A stretch of DNA of 64,000 bases from Maritimibacter dapengensis (GTDB taxonomy: Bacteria; Pseudomonadota; Alphaproteobacteria; Rhodobacterales; Rhodobacteraceae). The stretch spans positions 248,001-312,000 of the forward strand of contig NZ_JAHUZE010000001.1 of assembly GCF_019218265.1 (NCBI RefSeq), written 5' to 3'. The notes under the pieces are model-generated. The model did no database searches, was not told where the DNA came from, and saw only the letters and a program-made list of their open reading frames with translations. Position 1 is the stretch's first letter. Each line of letters begins with the position of its first letter. A program made the translations under genes and the position numbers. Positions 25,266 to 34,364 of the stretch are shown here, one piece after another.

Positions 25266-26900
25266 ATGGTTGATGCAAACGAAAATGGCAGCGCCGAACG
25301 TGTCGACATCATCGTCGTCGGTGCGGGGTTCGGGGGCATGTATGCGGTCTATAAATTCCGAGAAATGGGCAAGAACGTTGTCGGTATAGAAGCTGGCAGC
25401 GACGTGGGAGGCGTGTGGTATTGGAACCGCTATCCCGGCGCGCGCTGCGACCTGATGAGCGTGGATTACAGCTACGGATTCTCGCCCGAGATCGAACAGG
25501 AATGGACCTGGTCCGAGCAATTCGCGGCACAGCCGGAAATCCTCGAATATGCCAATTTCGTCGCCGACCGGCTCGACCTGCGCAAGAACTTCAGGTTCGA
25601 CACCCGCGTGACCTCGGCGATCTGGGACGAAGAGCGGAAGCTATGGGTCGCGAAGACCGACGGAGGTGCGGTTCTCGAAGCACCCTATGCGATCATGTCG
25701 ACCGGCCCGCTGTCGATCCCGAAAGATCCCGATATTCCCGGCATCGACCGGTTCAAGGGTGAATTGTACCGCGCGCAAAAATGGCCACATCACGAGGTCG
25801 ATTTCACAGGAAAACGGGTCGGCGTCATCGGCACAGGCTCGACCGGTATTCAGATCATTCAGGAAGTCGGGCCCCAAGCTGGCGAATTGTTTGTTTTCCA
25901 GCGCACACCGAGCTTCACCCTGCCGATGCGGAACCGGGATCTGTCACCCGAATACGTGGCCGAGATGAAGAAGCATTATCGTCAAATGCGTGCGGCAATG
26001 AAGATGAACCCGACCGGCGGCACCCGCCCGGTCACCTCGCGCCCATTCTATTCGCTCCCGCCCGATCAGCGCGAAGAGGCGATGGAGCAGGCGTGGCAGA
26101 ACGGCGGCCACACCTTCCTCGGGACGTTCGCCGACCTGATGGTCAACGAGGAAGCGAACGAGGCGGTGGCCGATTTCGTGCGCGGCAAGATTGGCGAGAT
26201 CGTGGACGATCCGAAAACCGCCGAGGCCTTGAAACCGCGCGGCTACCCGATCTTTGCCCGACGGCCCTGTCTCGATACCGAATATTATGAGACCTACAAT
26301 CGGCCGAACGTTCATCTGATCAACTGTAAAGAGGACCCGATCCTCGAAATCACCGAGAAGGGTATTCGCACGGAAAGCGGTGAACACGAGCTCGACATGT
26401 TGATCTTTGCGACCGGTTACGATGCGCTGACCGGGGCACTTCTGGCCTTCGACGTGGTGGGCCGAGACGGGCTGACGCTCAAGGAAAAGTGGAAAGACGG
26501 GCCACGCTCGCACCTCGGGATCGCGATGGCGGGGTTTCCCAACCTCTTCGCCACGACCGGGCCAAACGGTCCGGCCGCGCTCGCCAATATCATCACAATC
26601 AGCGAGAACGACGTCGACTGGATTGCAGATCTGATTACCTACATGGAAGACAAGAACCTGTCGGCGGTCGAACCGACCCAGGAGGTCGAAGACGCCTGGA
26701 TGGATCACGTCGCCGCACTCGCCGCGCCGTCCCTGATCCGCAAGGCAAACACCTGGTGGGTGGGTGCGAATGTGAAGGGTAAGCCAACCGGACTGACCAT
26801 GTTCGTCGGTGGTTTTGCGAAGTACCGCGAAGCCTGCGAAGCGGTGGCGGCGTCGAAATATGCCGACTACAGCTTTGATCGCATAACCGAGCCAGCGTGA
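25266..26900 (+). CDS. Baeyer-Villiger-type flavin monooxygenase
   Basis: The 544-residue protein has two Rossmann motifs, VVGAGFGGMYAVYKFREMG (FAD, about residue 20) and GVIGTGSTGIQIIQEVG (NADPH, about 190). It also carries the type-I BVMO segment GGVWYWNRYPGARCD and the ATG motif DMLIFATGYDA. The BVMO fingerprint FxGxxxHxxxWP reads FKGELYRAQKWP, so the central His is Arg. Such enzymes insert oxygen into ketones to give esters or lactones, fitting the SMP-30 lactonase and CoA ligases of this cluster. It could also be an N- or S-oxidising relative. A GAGAGGAGAC ribosome site precedes the ATG. Confidence 0.88.
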   Translation: MVDANENGSAERVDIIVVGAGFGGMYAVYKFREMGKNVVGIEAGSDVGGVWYWNRYPGARCDLMSVDYSYGFSPEIEQEWTWSEQFAAQPEILEYANFVADRLDLRKNFRFDTRVTSAIWDEERKLWVAKTDGGAVLEAPYAIMSTGPLSIPKDPDIPGIDRFKGELYRAQKWPHHEVDFTGKRVGVIGTGSTGIQIIQEVGPQAGELFVFQRTPSFTLPMRNRDLSPEYVAEMKKHYRQMRAAMKMNPTGGTRPVTSRPFYSLPPDQREEAMEQAWQNGGHTFLGTFADLMVNEEANEAVADFVRGKIGEIVDDPKTAEALKPRGYPIFARRPCLDTEYYETYNRPNVHLINCKEDPILEITEKGIRTESGEHELDMLIFATGYDALTGALLAFDVVGRDGLTLKEKWKDGPRSHLGIAMAGFPNLFATTGPNGPAALANIITISENDVDWIADLITYMEDKNLSAVEPTQEVEDAWMDHVAALAAPSLIRKANTWWVGANVKGKPTGLTMFVGGFAKYREACEAVAASKYADYSFDRITEPA

Positions 26901-26909
26901 GATAGAGGC

Positions 26910-28133
26910 ATGTCAAAGACCTGCGCGCTCGTCACCGGTGGAGCAGACGGGATCGGCTGGTCCATCTGCCAAACCCTCGTCGCGCAGGGGTATCTGTGTG
27001 CCGTGGCTGACATCGACGGAGAGAAAGCGCAGGCTCGAGCGGCGACGCTGGGTCCGGGCAACGTGGCGCTCACCGTCGATTTGTCGGATGTCGAGGCTGC
27101 GCGCGCGTTGCCGGATCGGGCGCGTCGGGCGCTCGGGGATTTACATCTGGTCGTCAACAATGCGGGCATAACCGACAACGCCGGGCGGACGATCCCGGAT
27201 ATGGACGAGAGAAAATTCAACGAAATCGTTACGGTGAACCTCGACAGCGTCGCTGCGATCTGTCGAGCCGGGGCCGAGGTGATGGGACCTGCGGGCCGGA
27301 TCGTCAACCTCGCGTCCGGCGCGTCTTTCCGCCCCCTGCCGCTACGGGGACCGTACAGCGCCACGAAGGCCGGAATCGTCGAATTGACACGTGCGCTGGC
27401 GAGAGAGTGGCGCGGCGCACCTTTCGTGAGCGCGGTGGCGCCGGGATACATTCGCACGCCCCTTGTCGAAGACCTGATCGCGAATGGTCGGATCGACCCT
27501 GAGGCCGTGGCGAAGGGAATTCCTCGTGGGAGACTGGGGCAATCGCAGGATATCGCAAACGCGGTCGCCTTCCTCGCGGGTCCTGCTGGCGCGGTCATGA
27601 ACGGGCAGTGTCTTTCGGTAGATGGCGGCGTGTTGGCGGCAGCCGGCGCGGGCTATGGCCATAGGGACGGACAACCGACGACGGATGAGCCGGTCCTCGT
27701 GATCGGCGAGGGCGGCTTGGCGACGGCGCTCGCGTCGGCGCTCCCCGGTGCGCGGCGCGTGGATATGAGCGCGGTTCGGTTCACATCGGATGCGCCGTTG
27801 ATCGTCGTGATCGACGTGGATGCGCCCGCTTGGGCTTCCCCCTTGGAACACCTTCGCAAACTCGAAGGCGCGCGGGTCGCCGGCGGTTCCACCGCTCCCG
27901 TTCTGTTCGTGTGCGAAGAACAGGCAGAGGCCCGTGCCGAGCAGCGCGCATTGAATCAAGCGATCGGCATGTTTGCGCGGACGCGGGCGCTGGAAGAGGC
28001 AGAGCGCGGCACACGGATCAATGCGCTCATCGTTCCACAGGGCGACACGAGCGCGGTCCCGCTGGCTGCGTTTCTTGTTTCTGAGGCCGCGGATTACGTG
28101 CAGGCGCAATCCATCAACGTTGTCGCAAATTAG
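26910..28133 (+). CDS. Two-domain SDR: active dehydrogenase fused to a degenerate SDR-like domain
   Basis: The 407-residue protein is 1.6 times the usual SDR length. Residues 1-245 form a normal SDR: TGGADGIGWS, NNAGITDNAG, Ser in LASGASF, YSATK and the closing LSVDGGVLA. From about residue 260 a second part begins, VLVIGEGGLATALASALPG, and ends with RTRALEEAERGTRINALIVP and SEAADYVQAQSINVV. These mimic the late SDR helices and beta strand, but there is no TGxxxGxG, NNAG or YxxxK. I infer a decayed second SDR copy or structural domain. It sits between the monooxygenase and the OYE gene with short gaps. Confidence 0.8.
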   Translation: MSKTCALVTGGADGIGWSICQTLVAQGYLCAVADIDGEKAQARAATLGPGNVALTVDLSDVEAARALPDRARRALGDLHLVVNNAGITDNAGRTIPDMDERKFNEIVTVNLDSVAAICRAGAEVMGPAGRIVNLASGASFRPLPLRGPYSATKAGIVELTRALAREWRGAPFVSAVAPGYIRTPLVEDLIANGRIDPEAVAKGIPRGRLGQSQDIANAVAFLAGPAGAVMNGQCLSVDGGVLAAAGAGYGHRDGQPTTDEPVLVIGEGGLATALASALPGARRVDMSAVRFTSDAPLIVVIDVDAPAWASPLEHLRKLEGARVAGGSTAPVLFVCEEQAEARAEQRALNQAIGMFARTRALEEAERGTRINALIVPQGDTSAVPLAAFLVSEAADYVQAQSINVVAN

Positions 28134-28142
28134 GAACGCAAT

Positions 28143-29324
28143 ATGGCCGTTCTATTCGACCCCCTCACCATCGGAGGTGTGACGCTCCCCAACCGGATAC
28201 AGGTCAGTCCGATGTGCCAATACAGTGCCGTGGACGGCGTGTTGCAGGACTGGCACCTGATTCACCTTGGGGGGCTCATGCTGTCGGGAGCGGGGCTGGT
28301 CTTCGCTGAAGCCACCGCTGTCGAGGCGCGCGGGCGGATCACCCACGGGTGCGTTGGTTTGGAAAACGACGTTCAAGAGAGGGCGCTCGCCGATCTCGTC
28401 GCGCGTCTGCGCCCCCTGTCGGAGGCGCGGATCGGTTTGCAACTGAGCCACGCAGGGCGGCGTGGCTCGGCGCGGTCGATCGCAGATCGTTCGAAGGGCG
28501 AAAGCCTACCCGCCGATGAGAGGGCCTGGCTGACGCGGGGGCCGAGCGCTCTGCCATACAACGAAACCTGGGCCACCCCCGAAGAGATGACGCCGGACGA
28601 CATCGCCACGGTGATCGCGGCCTTTGCCGATGCAAGCCGCCGGGCGGTGCGTGCGGGCGTGGACGTGATCGAATGTCATGCCGCACATGGGTATCTGTTG
28701 CATCAATTTTTTTCCCCGCGTACGAACCTTCGCCGGGATGCCTACGGCGGGTCTTTGAAAAACCGGATGCGCTTTCCCTTGGAAGTCATTGCGGTCATGC
28801 GTGACGCGATCGGGCCTGACCGGGCGCTTGGGGTGCGGGTCAACAGCACGGATTGGCATCCCGAAGGTGCGACCCTGGACGATGCGGTGCTCTTCGCGAA
28901 AGAGCTGGAGGCGCTTGGCGTCGACTACGTGACCATGTCGGCTGGCAACCTGGTGTCCGACGCTGTCATTCCCAAGGCGACGCCCGGTCATCAAGTCGGC
29001 TTCAGCGAGCGGGTTAAGGCAGAAACGGGGCTTACCACGGCCGCGGTAGGCCTGATTACCGATCCGCATCAGGCCGAAGCTATCCTGCGCGAGGGGCGCG
29101 CCGACATGGTCGCCATCGCGCGGGGGTTTCTGGATAACCCCCGTTGGGGTCTTCACGCCGCCGCCGCTCTGGGGGTCGACGTGCCCTATCCGCAGCAATA
29201 CATCCGCGCGCGACCGAACAACTGGACTGCGTTCAAACGCGTGCACCCTGAAGCGCCGAGCGTGGCATCGACGCATCAGGCGGACCGCCCCTCAGGGTCG
29301 ACATGGGACCGGCCCGATCAGTAG
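28143..29324 (+). CDS. Old Yellow Enzyme, YqjM-like ene-reductase
   Basis: The 393-residue flavoprotein is a TIM-barrel NADH:flavin oxidoreductase. VSPMCQYSAVDG carries the Cys typical of thermophilic-like OYEs, and QLSHAGRRG, ECHAAHGYLLHQFFSPRTN (substrate His-His pair) and ADMVAIARGFLDNP follow. These enzymes reduce activated C=C bonds such as cyclic enones. In this cluster it would saturate an enone before Baeyer-Villiger oxidation. It is the last gene of the operon. Confidence 0.92.
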   Translation: MAVLFDPLTIGGVTLPNRIQVSPMCQYSAVDGVLQDWHLIHLGGLMLSGAGLVFAEATAVEARGRITHGCVGLENDVQERALADLVARLRPLSEARIGLQLSHAGRRGSARSIADRSKGESLPADERAWLTRGPSALPYNETWATPEEMTPDDIATVIAAFADASRRAVRAGVDVIECHAAHGYLLHQFFSPRTNLRRDAYGGSLKNRMRFPLEVIAVMRDAIGPDRALGVRVNSTDWHPEGATLDDAVLFAKELEALGVDYVTMSAGNLVSDAVIPKATPGHQVGFSERVKAETGLTTAAVGLITDPHQAEAILREGRADMVAIARGFLDNPRWGLHAAAALGVDVPYPQQYIRARPNNWTAFKRVHPEAPSVASTHQADRPSGSTWDRPDQ

Positions 29325-29805: not shown

Positions 29806-30387
29806 TCAGATCGCCCAGTCGTGGTGCAGCGCTTCTAGTTCGTTGGGCGAGGTGAGGTCGAGGGCTTCGGCTGTGGAAGCCTGCTCGGGGGCCAGTGCCT
29901 GACCGGCATAGATCGGGGTCCCATCTGCCGGAGACAGGGCGATAAACCCCGGCGCGGCGGTGTGAAAGCCCCAGAGCGAGGGTCCCGTCGGGGTGGTCAC
30001 GCGCCAGAGCGGAGCATCCGCTTCGGGCGCGTGGCGCAGCCCGATCCCACGCACGAAGGCGGGTTCCGCCAGTCGGGTGCGCGCGGTCAGTGGGCGGTCC
30101 GACACGCCGTCATGCCAGAGCCATTCACCCTGTCCCTGCGGAGATCGCCCGGTCGTGGCGCGCACCATCAGGCGGCGGATCAGGCCCGAAGTCTGTCCGC
30201 CGAGACGCAGCGGCACCGGGGCGGTGTCGGGCCGGTCGTCCAGATGCAGGATCGGCGCGTGTGTCAGCACGAACAGCGCCGTCGCGAACCCGTTTCGCTC
30301 CAGACACTGTGCGACGCTGATCCCGAGCGGGAAATACCCGTCGAGGATATCGTCGAACCGCTGGCAGGGCAGGGGGGTGCGGGGCAT
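29806..30387 (-). CDS. Unknown protein of the split-Rieske/GS-like cluster
   Basis: The 193-residue protein starts MPRTPLPCQRFDDILDGYFP one base after the GS-like stop, so it is translationally coupled. I recognise no family. It is soluble, without signal peptide or membrane segment. The N-terminal third (FATALFVLTHAPILHL) and the middle (GLIRRLMVRATTG, then GEWLWHDGVSD) look like beta strands of a small barrel. Its constant neighbours here are a glutamate-ligase-like enzyme and an oxygenase, so an accessory or product-releasing role is possible. The adjacent frame 29640-29780 may be its lost C-terminus. Confidence 0.6.
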   Translation of the reverse strand: MPRTPLPCQRFDDILDGYFPLGISVAQCLERNGFATALFVLTHAPILHLDDRPDTAPVPLRLGGQTSGLIRRLMVRATTGRSPQGQGEWLWHDGVSDRPLTARTRLAEPAFVRGIGLRHAPEADAPLWRVTTPTGPSLWGFHTAAPGFIALSPADGTPIYAGQALAPEQASTAEALDLTSPNELEALHHDWAI

Positions 30388-30388
30388 G

Positions 30389-31852
30389 TCAGAACAGGTT
30401 GAAGTATTCGGCCTGCTCCCAGTCCGAGACGGTCATCAGGTAACGTTGCCATTCGGCGCGTTTCAGGTGGGAGAGATACCCCTGGAACGCCGGGCCGAAC
30501 GCCGTTGCGAAAAGCGGGCACTCTTCGAAGGCCTCGATCGCGGCGATGAGGCTGGGCGGAAGCAGCGCCGTGTCGTCGGCATAAGGCGTGCTGGTCGGGG
30601 CGGGCGCACTCGCCCCGCGCGTGATCCCGTCCAGCCCCGAGACGATCTGCGCGGCCAGCGCGTAGTAGGGATTGGCGGTGGTGTCGGCCACCCGGTTTTC
30701 CACCCGCGAGGCCGGGTCGCCCCCGGTCAGGAGCGCGCGCAGCATGGCGCCCCGATTGTCGGTGCCCCATTGCACCCGGTTGGGGGCAAGCTGAAACGCG
30801 GTGAAGCGTTTGTAGCCGTTCACGGTGGGGTTGGTCATCAGGCACGCGGCTGCGGCATGGTCGAGCAACCCGGCGATCCACGCGCTGGCCAGATCGGTCA
30901 GGGTGCCGTCCGTCTCTGCCGTGAACACGTTTTCCCCGGTGTCGCGCGATAGGAGCGATTGGTGGATGTGCCAGCCGTTCGCCGCGCTGTTGGGCAGGCG
31001 AGGTTTGGCCATGAAGCTCGCATGAAGCCCCATGTCGTGGCAGACCTCCTTCACCATGGTGCGAAACAGCACGAAGCGGTCCGCTTGGGTCAGGGGGTCG
31101 GAGGCGTCGAAGGTGAATTCGAACTGTGACGGCCCCATTTCGATCTCCATCGACCGGGGGGCGAGGCCCATCTCCTCGGCGTAGCGACGCAGCGTATCCA
31201 GAAGCGGTTCGACCTCGCCGTAGCGGGTTTCCGACAGGTAGGACCAGCCTTGGGTCGTGTTGCGGGTGCCGCGCGGGGCCGGGGGCATAGTGGCCTCCGA
31301 ATGGTCGAGCGCGGGGTCTTCGATCTCGAACACCTGGAATTCGACCTCGAGGCCCATGACGGCATCGAACCCCGCCTGGGCCAGCCGGTCCATGGCGGTG
31401 CGCAGCACCTGGCGCGGGGCGATGGATACCGGATCGCCGTTCGTGAAAGCGAGGTCGCAGATCAGCACCGCCGAGTGCGGCGACCAGGGAAGGGGGGTCA
31501 GCCGGTCCGGATCGGGGACCAGCAGAACGTCTCCGGCCCCGGCCAGGGGGCGACCGTCCAATTCCAAAGCGCCGTTCCAGATGTCGAACACGGTCATGTT
31601 GGCCGTGTCTTTCAGAAGCAACGTCGAGGGCACGGACAGCCCGTTTTCGAACAGCGACCCGAGCGTGCGCGCGGTGATCGTCTTGCCGCGCAGCAGCCCG
31701 TGCTGATCGGGAAACAACACGCGGATGGTTTCCAATCCGTTGCCCGATGCCTCCTCCACCAGCGCGGCGGCGCGGGTGATCTGCTCCGGGGACAACAGCC
31801 CCCGGCGCGCGAGTTTGCCGCCTGCGATGCGGTCCAATGTGCTGTCGGTCAT
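30389..31852 (-). CDS. Glutamine synthetase-like gamma-glutamyl-amine ligase
   Basis: The 487-residue protein is a full-length glutamine synthetase homologue: RVLFPDQHGLLRGKTI in the beta-grasp domain, GLEVEFQVFE and EIEMGPSQFEFTF with metal Glu residues, NGWHIHQSLLS (metal His), NGYKRF and WGTDNRGAMLRAL (substrate/ATP Arg), and RVENRVADTTANPYYALAA. It lacks the GlnA adenylylation Tyr region and resembles the PuuA/GlnT/aniline-type ligases that join glutamate to amines. Coupled to an oxygenase, it suggests gamma-glutamylation of an amine before oxidation. The start at 31852 follows the oxygenase stop by 7 nt. Confidence 0.85.
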   Translation of the reverse strand: MTDSTLDRIAGGKLARRGLLSPEQITRAAALVEEASGNGLETIRVLFPDQHGLLRGKTITARTLGSLFENGLSVPSTLLLKDTANMTVFDIWNGALELDGRPLAGAGDVLLVPDPDRLTPLPWSPHSAVLICDLAFTNGDPVSIAPRQVLRTAMDRLAQAGFDAVMGLEVEFQVFEIEDPALDHSEATMPPAPRGTRNTTQGWSYLSETRYGEVEPLLDTLRRYAEEMGLAPRSMEIEMGPSQFEFTFDASDPLTQADRFVLFRTMVKEVCHDMGLHASFMAKPRLPNSAANGWHIHQSLLSRDTGENVFTAETDGTLTDLASAWIAGLLDHAAAACLMTNPTVNGYKRFTAFQLAPNRVQWGTDNRGAMLRALLTGGDPASRVENRVADTTANPYYALAAQIVSGLDGITRGASAPAPTSTPYADDTALLPPSLIAAIEAFEECPLFATAFGPAFQGYLSHLKRAEWQRYLMTVSDWEQAEYFNLF

Positions 31853-31859
31853 GGGCGGA

Positions 31860-33080
31860 TCACACCGAAGCGTCCCATGGGCAGCCTGCCCGGCGGTCGA
31901 GGTCGGCAAGGTGGCTGGCCTCGGCCCAGTCCCGAGTATCGCCGATGGCGTCGTTGGACAGGGGGCCGACGATGCGGGCCGCGCCGTCGTCCTGCATCGG
32001 CAGCGTGTCGCGGTCGTTCTGTTCCATCGCGTCCATGGCGCGGCGCAGCATCCGGCGGTAGCGGATGATCGCGACGTCCGAGCGCCCAAGGTGTTCCTGC
32101 GTGCGGTCCTGAATGGCCCCCATGCCTTCGACCGCCCATTGGTCATGCACGTTGATGTCGAGCCCCATGCCCGTGTAGGTCAGGCTCGCCTGTTCCTCCG
32201 GGTCGTAGTGATAATCGTTCTCACGGTTCTTCAGCGGCGCGTAATCCGGCAGGCGGTGTTCTTTCAGCCGCTGTTCGCGCATCAGGTCCTTGTTCACTGG
32301 CTTGTCGAAGCTGGTGAAGATGGTGAACCAATAACAGGTCTCGTCATCCACCGGGACATGCCACTGGGTGATCGTCATTTCGCGCGACATGGGAATACAG
32401 ATCGCCTCGGGGAAAATCTGGTTGGTGACGCGGACATGGGTGCGCCCGTCCTCCATGTGACGCAGCGCGGTGATCTTGAGCCCGTAGTCGGTTTCATCCA
32501 CATTGATCTCAGGGCGCGGGTAGTCGCGCAGGAGCTTGGTCATCGGAATCTCGGTCGACCCGGCCTTGTCGCGGAACTGTTTGCCATAGCCGTCGGCGGG
32601 GTCGTCATCCTCCAGAAAGCGGTGCAGGAACGAGGCGTGCGCCGGGTCGATGCCGATTTCGAGCGCCTGAAGCCAGTTGCACTCCCACAGCCCCTTGAAA
32701 GCAAAGACATGGCTGTCGGGGGCGCGGAAACAGTCGAAATTAGGGAACGGCGGCGGGGTGCCCGCGCCGAGATAGGCAAAGACCGCGCCCGCGCGCTGTT
32801 CGGCGGGATAGGTGGGGCCGGTCGGGTCGATCTCGATCTCCTCGGAGGCCGGGTAATGCGTGGGGGCTTCGTCGGCGCTGGCGATCCGGGTCGCGAGGTG
32901 GAGCGGCCCATCGTCCTGCACGAGCACCAACCGCTCGCCCAAAAGATTCACTGGCACACGCGTGCCGTGCTCCAGTTCGTCTGTCAGCGCGGCGGGCTGC
33001 CAATATTGGCGCAGCACCGCGCCCGCCGGGGTGTCGGGCCCGATTCTGGTGATCCGCTCGTTGAGTTGCGCTGAAATCAT
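31860..33080 (-). CDS. Rieske-type oxygenase catalytic subunit lacking the Rieske cluster site
   Basis: The 406-residue protein matches phthalate-type oxygenase alpha subunits from its first residues (LNERITRIGPDTPAGAVLRQ, then YWQPAALTDEL). The mononuclear iron site is intact: ECNWLQALEIGIDPAHASFL followed by His (D-x2-H-x4-H). The part that should carry CxH-x16-CxxH is missing. After LVLVQDDGPLHLA the chain runs through an Asp/Pro-rich linker to VFAYLGAGTP, and the only Cys residues there are not paired with His. The 2Fe-2S domain is instead encoded by the gene directly upstream, overlapping by ATGA. A long N-terminal frame to 33914 is rejected. Confidence 0.85.
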   Translation of the reverse strand: MISAQLNERITRIGPDTPAGAVLRQYWQPAALTDELEHGTRVPVNLLGERLVLVQDDGPLHLATRIASADEAPTHYPASEEIEIDPTGPTYPAEQRAGAVFAYLGAGTPPPFPNFDCFRAPDSHVFAFKGLWECNWLQALEIGIDPAHASFLHRFLEDDDPADGYGKQFRDKAGSTEIPMTKLLRDYPRPEINVDETDYGLKITALRHMEDGRTHVRVTNQIFPEAICIPMSREMTITQWHVPVDDETCYWFTIFTSFDKPVNKDLMREQRLKEHRLPDYAPLKNRENDYHYDPEEQASLTYTGMGLDINVHDQWAVEGMGAIQDRTQEHLGRSDVAIIRYRRMLRRAMDAMEQNDRDTLPMQDDGAARIVGPLSNDAIGDTRDWAEASHLADLDRRAGCPWDASV

Positions 33081-33478
33081 ACTGCGTCCTCCTTTTGCCC
33101 GGTCTGTGCCAGATCCGCTCCCACCAGCGCGAAAATCTCGCCGTTTTCTTCGCGGACCGGCACCATCGGCACCTTGATCTGCTCGAACATCTTCGACCCT
33201 TCCGGTTCGGCGGGCTGTTCGACGCATTGCCCGGTCCGGTCGAAGTGCCAGCCGTGGAACGGGCACCGCAGGCCATTGTCCTCCAGACGACCGTAGCACA
33301 GATCCGCGCCGCGGTGGGGGCAGTTGCGCCCGATCAGACCCAGTTCGCCCTCGTCGTCGCGAAACAGCACGAGCCGGTGGCCCTCCAGCGTGACTGGGCG
33401 CACGGGGCGGGGGATGTCCAGATCGGCGCTGGCCGCGATGCGCACCCAGGTGCCTTGAGTGTCGGTCTGGTCCGGCAT
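33077..33478 (-). CDS. Stand-alone Rieske 2Fe-2S protein, partner of the catalytic subunit
   Basis: The 133-residue protein has a full Rieske site: NCPHRGADLCYGRLEDNGLR then CPFHGW (CxH-x16-CxxH, residues about 51-73). The surrounding sequence (LVLFRDDEGELGLIGRN before, CVEQPAEPEGSKMFEQIKV after) is like the N-terminal segment of phthalate-type oxygenases rather than small ferredoxins. That is exactly the part missing from the next gene. It overlaps that gene's start (ATGA). It probably forms the electron-transfer domain in trans; no reductase gene is in the cluster. Confidence 0.85.
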   Translation of the reverse strand: MPDQTDTQGTWVRIAASADLDIPRPVRPVTLEGHRLVLFRDDEGELGLIGRNCPHRGADLCYGRLEDNGLRCPFHGWHFDRTGQCVEQPAEPEGSKMFEQIKVPMVPVREENGEIFALVGADLAQTGQKEDAV

Positions 33479-33522: not shown

Positions 33523-33537
33523 GTGCGATTATCGCAC
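33523..33537. promoter_or_regulatory. IclR-type operator between the split-oxygenase operon and its regulator
   Basis: GTGCGAT-T-ATCGCAC is a perfect 15-bp palindrome in the 106-base divergent region. It lies 45 bases upstream of the Rieske gene and 47 bases upstream of the IclR start. It differs from the TTCACA palindrome of the other IclR regulon. Confidence 0.65.
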
Positions 33538-33584
33538 AATAGGGGCGTTAAATGAACTCTGTCAGAGCGAAAGGCGGCTGTCAA

Positions 33585-34364
33585 ATGAGTGATCGGACCT
33601 TCGCAGCGACCCTGGCCAAGGGGCTGGACGTGCTGGCGTGTTTCGAAGGGCGCACCGGGGTGCAGACGATGCCCGAGGTGGTCGAGCGCAGCGGGTTCGA
33701 CCGGGCCACGGTGCGCCGTCTCTGTCTGACATTGGAAGCGAGCGGCTACCTCGTCCGGGAGGGGCGGGGCTTTCGGCTGGCGCCGCGTGTTCTGGCGTTG
33801 GCGGGGGGATACCTTGCCGATCTGGACGCGGGCCGCCGGGTGCAGCCGGTGCTGCGCGACGCGGCGGAGGCGCTCGACATGGAGGTGGCGCTGGCCACCC
33901 GCGACCGGATGCAAGCAATCTACGTGGACCGGGCCGCGCCTGCTTCGGCACGCGTTACGCTGGGCCTGTCAGTGGGGAGCACGCTGCCGCTTCTGCATAC
34001 GGCGGTCGGGCGGATGCTTCTGGCGCGGTCGGCGCCGGAAATCGTGGAGGCCGCGCTGGCCAAACCGCGGGTCCGACATACGGAAAACGCGGAGACCGAC
34101 CCCGACGCACTACGGGCCACCATAGAAACGGCGCGGGCGCAGGGTTACTGCATCGCGCGGAACGAATTCGAACCGGGTGCGGCCGGTGTCGCCGTGCCGG
34201 TCGGATCGCTGGGCGATCGGCCCTTCGTTCTGGCGACCACCGCGACGGTCAACCGGTTCGACGACCCCGAGGCGCTCGACAAGGTGCTGGACGCGCTGCG
34301 CCATGCTGCGATGGTCATGGGCCGCATCGGTCACCGGGTCGAGGGGGAGAGCGGGCCGGATTAA
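33585..34364 (+). CDS. IclR-family transcriptional regulator (PcaR/PobR-like)
   Basis: From ATG 33585 (AGGCGG seven bases upstream) the protein is 259 residues and begins MSDRTFAATLAKGLDVLACF. An in-frame ATG at 33552 is an alternative that would add 11 residues. The winged helix (TMPEVVERSGFDRATVRRLC) and the effector domain (VGRMLLARSAPEIV, then EFEPGAAGVAVPVGS) are of the PcaR/PobR kind, which usually sense aromatic acids. It is divergent from the split-oxygenase operon and probably controls it through the palindrome at 33523. Confidence 0.9.
   Translation: MSDRTFAATLAKGLDVLACFEGRTGVQTMPEVVERSGFDRATVRRLCLTLEASGYLVREGRGFRLAPRVLALAGGYLADLDAGRRVQPVLRDAAEALDMEVALATRDRMQAIYVDRAAPASARVTLGLSVGSTLPLLHTAVGRMLLARSAPEIVEAALAKPRVRHTENAETDPDALRATIETARAQGYCIARNEFEPGAAGVAVPVGSLGDRPFVLATTATVNRFDDPEALDKVLDALRHAAMVMGRIGHRVEGESGPD

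Follow-up and report, generated by a model that had tools for sequence, protein, structure and literature searches.

The window analysed here is a stretch of 64,000 nucleotides (nt) from Maritimibacter dapengensis (assembly GCF_019218265.1, contig NZ_JAHUZE010000001.1, positions 248,001-312,000 of the forward strand), and it contains a Rieske oxygenase divided over two genes. Four consecutive open reading frames on the minus strand encode, in this order, a small Rieske protein (RieskeS), the catalytic oxygenase subunit (Oxy), a ligase resembling glutamine synthetase (GS) and a protein termed p193. The features of the locus, with positions counted within the window, are the following.

33077-33478, minus strand: RieskeS, 133 amino acids (aa), a complete free-standing Rieske [2Fe-2S] domain (Pfam Rieske, 2.5e-22), proposed electron-transfer subunit acting in trans
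31860-33080, minus strand: Oxy, 406 aa, catalytic oxygenase subunit, phthalate/LigXa-like (Pfam LigXa_C, 7.3e-29)
31860-33478, minus strand: split-oxygenase core of RieskeS and Oxy, with a 4-nt overlap of start and stop codons (ATGA)
30389-31852, minus strand: GS-like amine:glutamate ligase, 487 aa (Pfam Gln-synt_C, 2.1e-82), proposed to gamma-glutamylate an amine
29806-30387, minus strand: p193, 193 aa, predicted fold like that of PCC/PPC (DUF296) proteins, without a Pfam or NCBIfam family
33552-34364, plus strand: IclR-family regulator, PcaR/PcaU/PobR-like, divergent from the operon (Pfam IclR_C, 3.9e-26), probable operon regulator
33523-33537, no strand: palindrome GTGCGAT-W-ATCGCAC, two 7-bp arms round one base, candidate operator

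The four reading frames and the ATGA coupling had been described in an earlier, sequence-only reading of this DNA, and both the coordinates and the overlap are as given there. The same 4-nt overlap joins RieskeS to Oxy in 12 of the 20 split loci found among the best 80 relatives.

The divided oxygenase

The sequence-only reading held that Oxy keeps the mononuclear-iron motif D-x2-H-x4-H and is devoid of the cluster-binding motif CxH-x16-CxxH. A motif scan and a Pfam scan bear this out: the former motif is present in Oxy, the latter is confined to RieskeS within the pair, and Oxy matches LigXa_C without a match to Pfam Rieske. The division is consistent throughout the window and the 20 split loci, in which the mononuclear-iron motif and the bridging aspartate are present in 21/21 split Oxy proteins. 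D145, H148 and H153 are found in all 83 oxygenases compared, 21 of them split and 62 fused, i.e. with the Rieske domain in the oxygenase chain. A complete Rieske motif in the catalytic subunit, the observation that would contradict the earlier claim, occurs in 0/21 split Oxy proteins as against 62/62 fused ones; the motif is instead supplied by the adjoining gene, the small neighbour protein carrying complete ligands in 21/21 cases. In the alignment, a 29-column gap removes the cluster lobe from Oxy, with the strands before and after the gap retained.

An AlphaFold2 (AF2) model of Oxy has an overall pLDDT of 85.2. Residues 1-130, which form the remnant Rieske base, reach a pLDDT of at least 90, and the hollowed Rieske domain is predicted to fold. 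The top fold matches of the model in Foldseek are the isophthalate dioxygenase 9INA/9IOY (E 4e-29) and the phthalate dioxygenase 7FJL/7V25 (E 2e-24) of Comamonas testosteroni KF1, which together with the LigXa_C match indicate the alpha-subunit fold of Rieske non-heme iron oxygenases. These enzymes share the fold at 24-27% identity to Oxy, but carry the Rieske lobe in the same chain and act, by their entry names, on dicarboxylates.

The sequence-only reading also proposed that the small gene encodes just the segment missing from Oxy, which proved too narrow. RieskeS aligns with residues ~27-136 of the fused relatives, that is, with the whole Rieske domain including the beta-strands on either side of the lobe. 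In a profile comparison, it further matches the N-terminal 112 residues of split Oxy, with matching regions to either side of the gap (97.6% probability, E 3.1e-12). Since the homology between RieskeS and Oxy extends to both flanks of the lost lobe, the most likely origin is a duplication of the Rieske domain, followed by a lobe deletion that hollowed out the copy left in Oxy.

Conservation differs sharply between the parts of the two proteins, as measured with lobe and base boundaries placed by hand. The cluster lobe of RieskeS has a mean identity of 86% to fused lobes, compared with 89% among fused lobes and 90% among RieskeS proteins. The base of RieskeS shares no more than 55% identity on its N side and 45% on its C side with that of the fused form, for which the fused-fused values are 79% and 70%; the RieskeS bases share 61% and 56% among themselves. 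Split and fused Oxy are 71% identical in the catalytic domain, 57-58% in the base and 9% in the linker that replaces the lobe. A single column (A90) separates RieskeS from fused domains at 80%. At 85%, four columns of Oxy distinguish the 20 split rows from the 36 fused ones. Two of them lie in the linker; the other two belong to the catalytic domain and are G319 and I142, the latter three residues away from the bridging aspartate. At the level of sequence, the RieskeS tip is nearly frozen and the catalytic domain of Oxy hardly changed, while the supporting parts drifted. Because the tip and the catalytic domain expected to face it are conserved in this way, electron transfer in trans from RieskeS to the iron of Oxy is likely. 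The ratio of nonsynonymous to synonymous substitution (dN/dS) against three relatives is 0.18-0.34 for RieskeS and 0.16-0.20 for Oxy, indicating purifying selection on both, and 0.19-0.28 for the ligase, values that are rough as dS is high in these comparisons.

The kinship of RieskeS lies with oxygenases. All 28 of its PDB profile matches at E<=1e-5 are 334-507 aa long and count as oxygenases, judged by their names or their length, and none is a ferredoxin, which upholds the earlier view that the domain is oxygenase-derived. Of the NCBIfam ferredoxin models, AndAb gives 26 bits on RieskeS and HcaC 21 bits, against cut-offs of 150, and the best NCBIfam match, an oxygenase model at 56 bits, is likewise below its cut-off. 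The 28 oxygenase-sized matches reject an ordinary ferredoxin by kinship, not by function.

Occurrence of the split form and its partner p193

A search of 394 genomes of the family with Oxy yielded matches at 1e-10 in 72. Ten of these, the window genome included, hold the full-length split form (72-100% identity), 36 hold the fused form, recognised by match pieces flanking about residues 65-88, and the remaining 26 have only distant oxygenases (29-37%) or a fragment (G245). The split and fused counts are based on table reading, with 11 of the 36 fused cases fetched and read. Loci were sampled separately as the best 80 of 579 relatives, a ranking that favours the split query and hence gives no totals or rates; they comprise 20 split and 60 fused loci. 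Holders of the split genes include Pararhodobacter, Roseobacter sp. GAI101, Pseudooceanicola, Thalassovita, Alloyangia, Alterinioella and one metagenome-assembled genome (MAG) of the Granulosicoccaceae. Two further split loci lie on complete plasmids. On the plasmid p111 of Pseudooceanicola algae (locus L125), Oxy and RieskeS are annotated as separate genes; on that of Palleronia sp. LCG004 (L124), the Rieske gene is absent from the gene table and present in the DNA. Nine other split loci contain an Oxy identical to sampled ones in three cases and different in six, giving at least 27 distinct split Oxy sequences outside the plasmid pair. The split arrangement is not a quirk of a single assembly.

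In a tree of 83 oxygenases (21 split, 62 fused), the split Oxy proteins occupy one side of a single branch with an SH-aLRT support of 100. The split clade roots inside the fused form, with fused proteins of the Mameliella type and a few others nearest (supports 84-94, by a quick method); loci L065 and L040 form long branches. A tree of the short Rieske domains likewise separates RieskeS from the fused domains (support 98). Mutual exclusion of the split and fused forms within a genome was considered and set aside: it is seen in 10/10 split genomes, scored on at most four candidates in most genomes, but is expected by chance.

The sequence-only reading had suggested looking for the same four-gene order elsewhere. 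The gene set recurs in full, with RieskeS, a GS-like gene and p193 at 20/20 split loci; the arrangement is less constant, the ligase lying on the opposite strand in 7/20 (L047, L049, L050, L053, L055, L057 and L058). In these seven loci, p193 still follows Oxy. At the 60 fused loci, p193 is found in none within up to 8 kb on each side. In the family-wide search, with up to seven candidates scored per genome, a p193 profile matches 11 of 394 genomes, namely the 10 split ones and, weakly, G312, and none of the 36 fused genomes. The "hypothetical proteins" behind Oxy on the two plasmids also prove to be p193 (L124, 5e-54; L125, 6e-48). Because p193 keeps its place after Oxy even at loci with a relocated ligase, and the ligases of the split loci do not form one clade, p193 seems to travel with the split oxygenase and not with the ligase.

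Sequence searches with p193 return no Pfam, NCBIfam or convincing PDB match (best PDB E 0.69); the one lead came from a predicted structure and its fold matches. An AF2 model built from 21 sequences has a pLDDT of 76.6, with block means of 83-96 over residues 11-120 and 51-68 thereafter. The first eight Foldseek rows of this model are 2P6Y, 2HX0, 2NMU, 2DT4, 3HWU, 3HTN (twice) and 2H6L, all of the PCC/PPC type (probabilities 0.51-1.00, E 1.6e-3 to 0.08); the title of 2DT4 says PCC, and the entries without that name in their titles are PCC proteins as well. The likeness to such proteins (2P6Y, 2NMU, 2DT4, 2H6L) is weak by E-value and unaccompanied by a Pfam match, and none of the 19 invariant residues of p193 is a histidine; the predicted fold of p193 resembles that of PCC/PPC (DUF296) proteins weakly. 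The fourth protein, for which the earlier reading had no assignment, hereby gains a predicted fold and an association with the split form alone, apart from one distant relative. The latter, the only relative of p193 outside the split genomes among the 394 searched, is a 264-aa protein of G312 (E 1e-6); the Pfam PCC model hits its second half at a sub-threshold E of 0.013. It is encoded at L123:8558-9349 and has an acyl-CoA-ligase-like gene on one side and a TRAP-type transporter on the other, both named by eye.

A different role for p193 may be envisaged, in which it is an enzyme, a hydrolase or a regulator acting on the gamma-glutamyl intermediate, outside the oxygenase and similar in role to AtdA2. 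Its place downstream of the ligase gene in 13/20 split loci fits this role, and AtdA2 of the aniline system is described as acting in this way (PMC11335346). We regard it as unlikely, though the best placed of the alternatives: p193 is not found at any of the 60 fused loci even though 59 of them have the ligase, remains behind Oxy in the 7/20 loci where the ligase has moved, and matches no Pfam or NCBIfam family.

Ligase, electron supply and known systems

The ligase gene lies near the oxygenase at 20/20 split and 59/60 fused loci; at the remaining one (L072), the contig ends. The sequence-only reading assigned it to the amine gamma-glutamylase type, and the solved structures concur: its best relatives are 8WWU/8WWV/8X6Z, with 324 bits compared with 172 for the next, which makes it nearer to these entries than to glutamine synthetases. 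They represent NpaA1, described as a 1-naphthylamine gamma-glutamylase (PMC11335346). The NpaA1 tunnel residues F75, F86 and W235 align with Lys81, Trp92 and a methionine of the ligase (numbering offset of 15, worked out by hand); the three tunnel residues are not kept. Lys81 is conserved in 21/21 split and 57/59 fused ligases, the other two having an arginine and an unreadable residue. As this conserved lysine replaces a tunnel phenylalanine of NpaA1, the substrate could, with low confidence, be an amine bearing an acid group, and aniline itself draws no specific support from the ligase residues. Aminobenzoate-like acids, considered in view of the PcaR-like regulator, the tunnel lysine and, on one plasmid, a pcaG gene ~11 kb away from the split genes, are a guess; a literature search on this combination returned no paper describing the system by title or abstract start.

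A gene of 112-117 aa resembling 5-carboxymethyl-2-hydroxymuconate isomerase lies beside the ligase at split loci L027, L047, L050, L055, L057, L124 (21024-21377) and L125 (12364-12702), and directly behind it at fused loci L071, L075, L096 and L110. At fused loci L032 and L034, GcvT, GcvH and GcvP-like genes, named by eye, follow the oxygenase-ligase pair downstream of the ligase.

The supply of electrons varies among the loci. The sequence-only reading assumed a recruited reductase; none is found beside the window operon. A flavodoxin and an FAD reductase accompany the split genes at 5 of 28 split loci scanned (L047, L050, L055 and the plasmid loci L124 and L125), adjoining RieskeS except at L124, where an IclR gene lies between. 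In P. algae, the pair (L125:7671-9312) is divergent from the split oxygenase, which is possibly a flavodoxin-fed Rieske oxygenase. Among 62 fused relatives scanned, five have a plant-type ferredoxin with an FAD reductase (L066, L067, L096 and plasmid loci L126 and L127) and L075 has a ferredoxin alone. The P. algae FAD reductase has partial matches of 31-34% in the window genome, which also encodes an unlinked GR-type reductase at 40% and nine unlinked Fer2 domains. As these candidates are partial or unlinked, no donor is named for this genome.

These data bear on a second alternative, that RieskeS is a soluble ferredoxin-like shuttle that docks only transiently onto an oxygenase devoid of a Rieske centre and feeds its mononuclear iron directly, making it a redox partner and not a subunit. 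RieskeS is indeed free-standing and of only 133 aa, Rieske ferredoxins occur in three-component systems, and reductases are linked to the split genes at some loci. The NCBIfam scores, with oxygenase and ferredoxin models alike falling far under their cut-offs, are counted here in favour of a shuttle. The PDB profile matches, however, are oxygenase-sized in 28/28 cases, the cluster tip has remained 86% identical to that of the fused form, and the flavodoxin and FAD reductase at 5/28 split loci could themselves be the soluble carriers. A shuttle is accordingly a rather improbable reading, slightly more so than an enzymatic p193.

With respect to regulation, the IclR protein matches TIGR02431 (PcaR/PcaU/PobR type) at E 3.9e-51 and 173.8 bits, under the cut-off of 284.75. 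The palindrome at 33523-33537 is a candidate operator of this protein. When up to two mismatches are allowed, further copies lie upstream of RieskeS at 5/20 split loci and at L021 and L022 of six further ones; it was not found at the two plasmid split loci. It also occurs within ~120 bp upstream of Oxy at 7/60 fused loci, and in other positions at five more fused loci and once more in the window, all as raw counts. Beyond the operon, the plus-strand genes at 25266-29324 point towards it and comprise a flavin-monooxygenase-like gene (named by eye), a short-chain dehydrogenase/reductase (SDR) gene and an old-yellow-enzyme gene; of these genes, nine other split loci compared yielded weak SDR matches and nothing more.

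Several known systems resemble parts of this operon. The AtdA1-A5 and NpaA1-A5 systems share the principle of amine gamma-glutamylation by a GS-like enzyme before Rieske oxygenation, NpaA1 being the closest solved relative of the ligase. They are described as containing a two-component oxygenase A3A4, a GAT-like A2 and a reductase A5 (PMC11335346), none of which is present in the window operon; in particular, the combination of A2 and a second oxygenase component A4 with the ligase, by which an aniline dioxygenase would be recognised, is lacking there. Nearer at hand are the fused oxygenase and GS-like pairs of Rhodobacterales and others (e.g. L060, L061), the oxygenases of which are 58-69% identical to Oxy in the 60 loci; more distant pairs lie on plasmids of Polaromonas sp. 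JS666 (51%) and Methylobacterium nodulans (53%). The fused pairs differ in carrying the Rieske domain in the oxygenase chain and in that p193 is not found at any of the 60 loci.

A two-chain Rieske oxygenase as such is already known from the chlorophyllide a oxygenase of Micromonas pusilla (MpCAO), whose chains are reportedly both full-length homologues, each without one metal site. The likeness consists in a Rieske oxygenase made of two chains; MpCAO is eukaryotic and has another substrate, whereas the present system has a bare-domain Rieske chain, a lobe-deleted partner, and a linked PCC-like protein and ligase. The nearest solved relatives found for split Oxy are phthalate-type oxygenases, and MpCAO is likened to it by description only. 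The two MpCAO chains are described as active in vitro, with a trimer of dimers suggested (PMC9615114). Searches of open-licence papers, some returning mostly off-topic results, and directed at split, two-chain or ligase-linked Rieske oxygenases, gave no bacterial case by title or abstract start. Within the reach of these searches, four features appear to be new, namely the occurrence in bacteria, the minimal Rieske chain, the hollow base left in Oxy and the PCC-like partner tied to the split form.

Proposed mechanism and significance

Taken together, the operon probably encodes a phthalate/isophthalate-type oxygenase with a duplicated-out Rieske domain as a non-covalent subunit, preceded by gamma-glutamylation of an amine and helped in its assembly by p193. 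The Rieske domain would have been duplicated into a gene of its own, and the copy remaining in Oxy would then have lost the lobe that binds the cluster. The ligase would gamma-glutamylate an amine, the product serving as the substrate of Oxy. RieskeS would bind non-covalently, place its conserved cluster tip in the socket that the deletion created, and pass electrons to the mononuclear iron of Oxy via the retained bridging Asp145. In ordinary alpha-3 Rieske oxygenases, electrons cross between neighbouring protomers. The PCC-like, hence possibly trimeric, p193 most likely would help to hold the separated parts together. In the window genome, an unlinked donor would supply the electrons; in some relatives, this would be the FAD reductase with flavodoxin. 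The conserved aspartate linking the Rieske and mononuclear centres is described as essential (PMC5033481), and prokaryotic PPC proteins are described as forming trimers (PMC4209074). By analogy, a trimeric p193 would fit a trimeric oxygenase, which is a suggestion only.

Several observations weigh against this interpretation. The Rieske-only tree fails to place a fused lineage from which RieskeS originated, and long branches meet the outgroup in it, leaving the root unsafe. The split-locus ligases are scattered in their tree, so the ligase is not strictly co-inherited with the oxygenase. The window genome has one other Rieske oxygenase, a distant one (C9, a 455-aa frame with 32% identity), and neither a reductase or electron donor linked to the operon nor a flavodoxin match. 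The Oxy model is weak at residues 141-190, which contain both histidine ligands of the iron, as well as at residues 301-310. For p193, none of 10 members matches Pfam PF03479 above cut-off, 0/428 Foldseek rows reach E<=0.001, with query TM-scores of 0.27-0.37 and rmsd values of 6.6-12.2, and its dN/dS of 0.41-0.77 against the three relatives makes it the fastest-evolving protein of the operon.

Two further explanations fare worse than those already discussed. Decay, by which Oxy lost its cluster and is no longer an oxygenase, would account for a 29-residue alignment deletion that takes out all four cluster ligands; it is rejected as highly improbable by recurrence and selection, the same architecture being present in 10/394 genomes and 20/80 loci as one clade, with the iron motif and bridging aspartate in 21/21 split Oxy proteins under purifying selection. 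An assembly or sequencing artefact concealing an intact fused gene has nothing in its favour except the unusual architecture and is negligible, contradicted as it is by independent isolates, MAGs and two complete plasmids.

A more specific extension of the preferred interpretation, a non-covalent RieskeS subunit on a hollowed Oxy, is offered tentatively and at less than even confidence: a three-protein assembly with a detachable electron-entry module, in which Oxy, RieskeS and a PCC-fold trimer possibly combine at three copies per protein. If this is true, the hollowed Rieske base of Oxy would be a docking platform, the cell could load, exchange or withhold RieskeS, and oxygen activation would be gated by subunit association and not by a conformational change within one chain.

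Most work on Rieske oxygenases has dealt with enzymes that hold the Rieske centre and the catalytic iron in one chain, where the two are hard to vary independently. The split form separates the two centres, which makes it a natural test of electron delivery in this widespread class of enzymes, and its fused sisters, at 58-69% identity, allow a direct comparison. Mixing and matching of two small proteins opens the way to studying long-standing questions: the gating of oxygen activation by the Rieske centre, the source of the two electrons used in each turnover and the needs of the interface. From the association of p193 with the split enzyme, a role may be hypothesised for an enzyme-linked PCC-like protein, and the operon as a whole points to oxygenation coupled to gamma-glutamylation in roseobacter-type bacteria.

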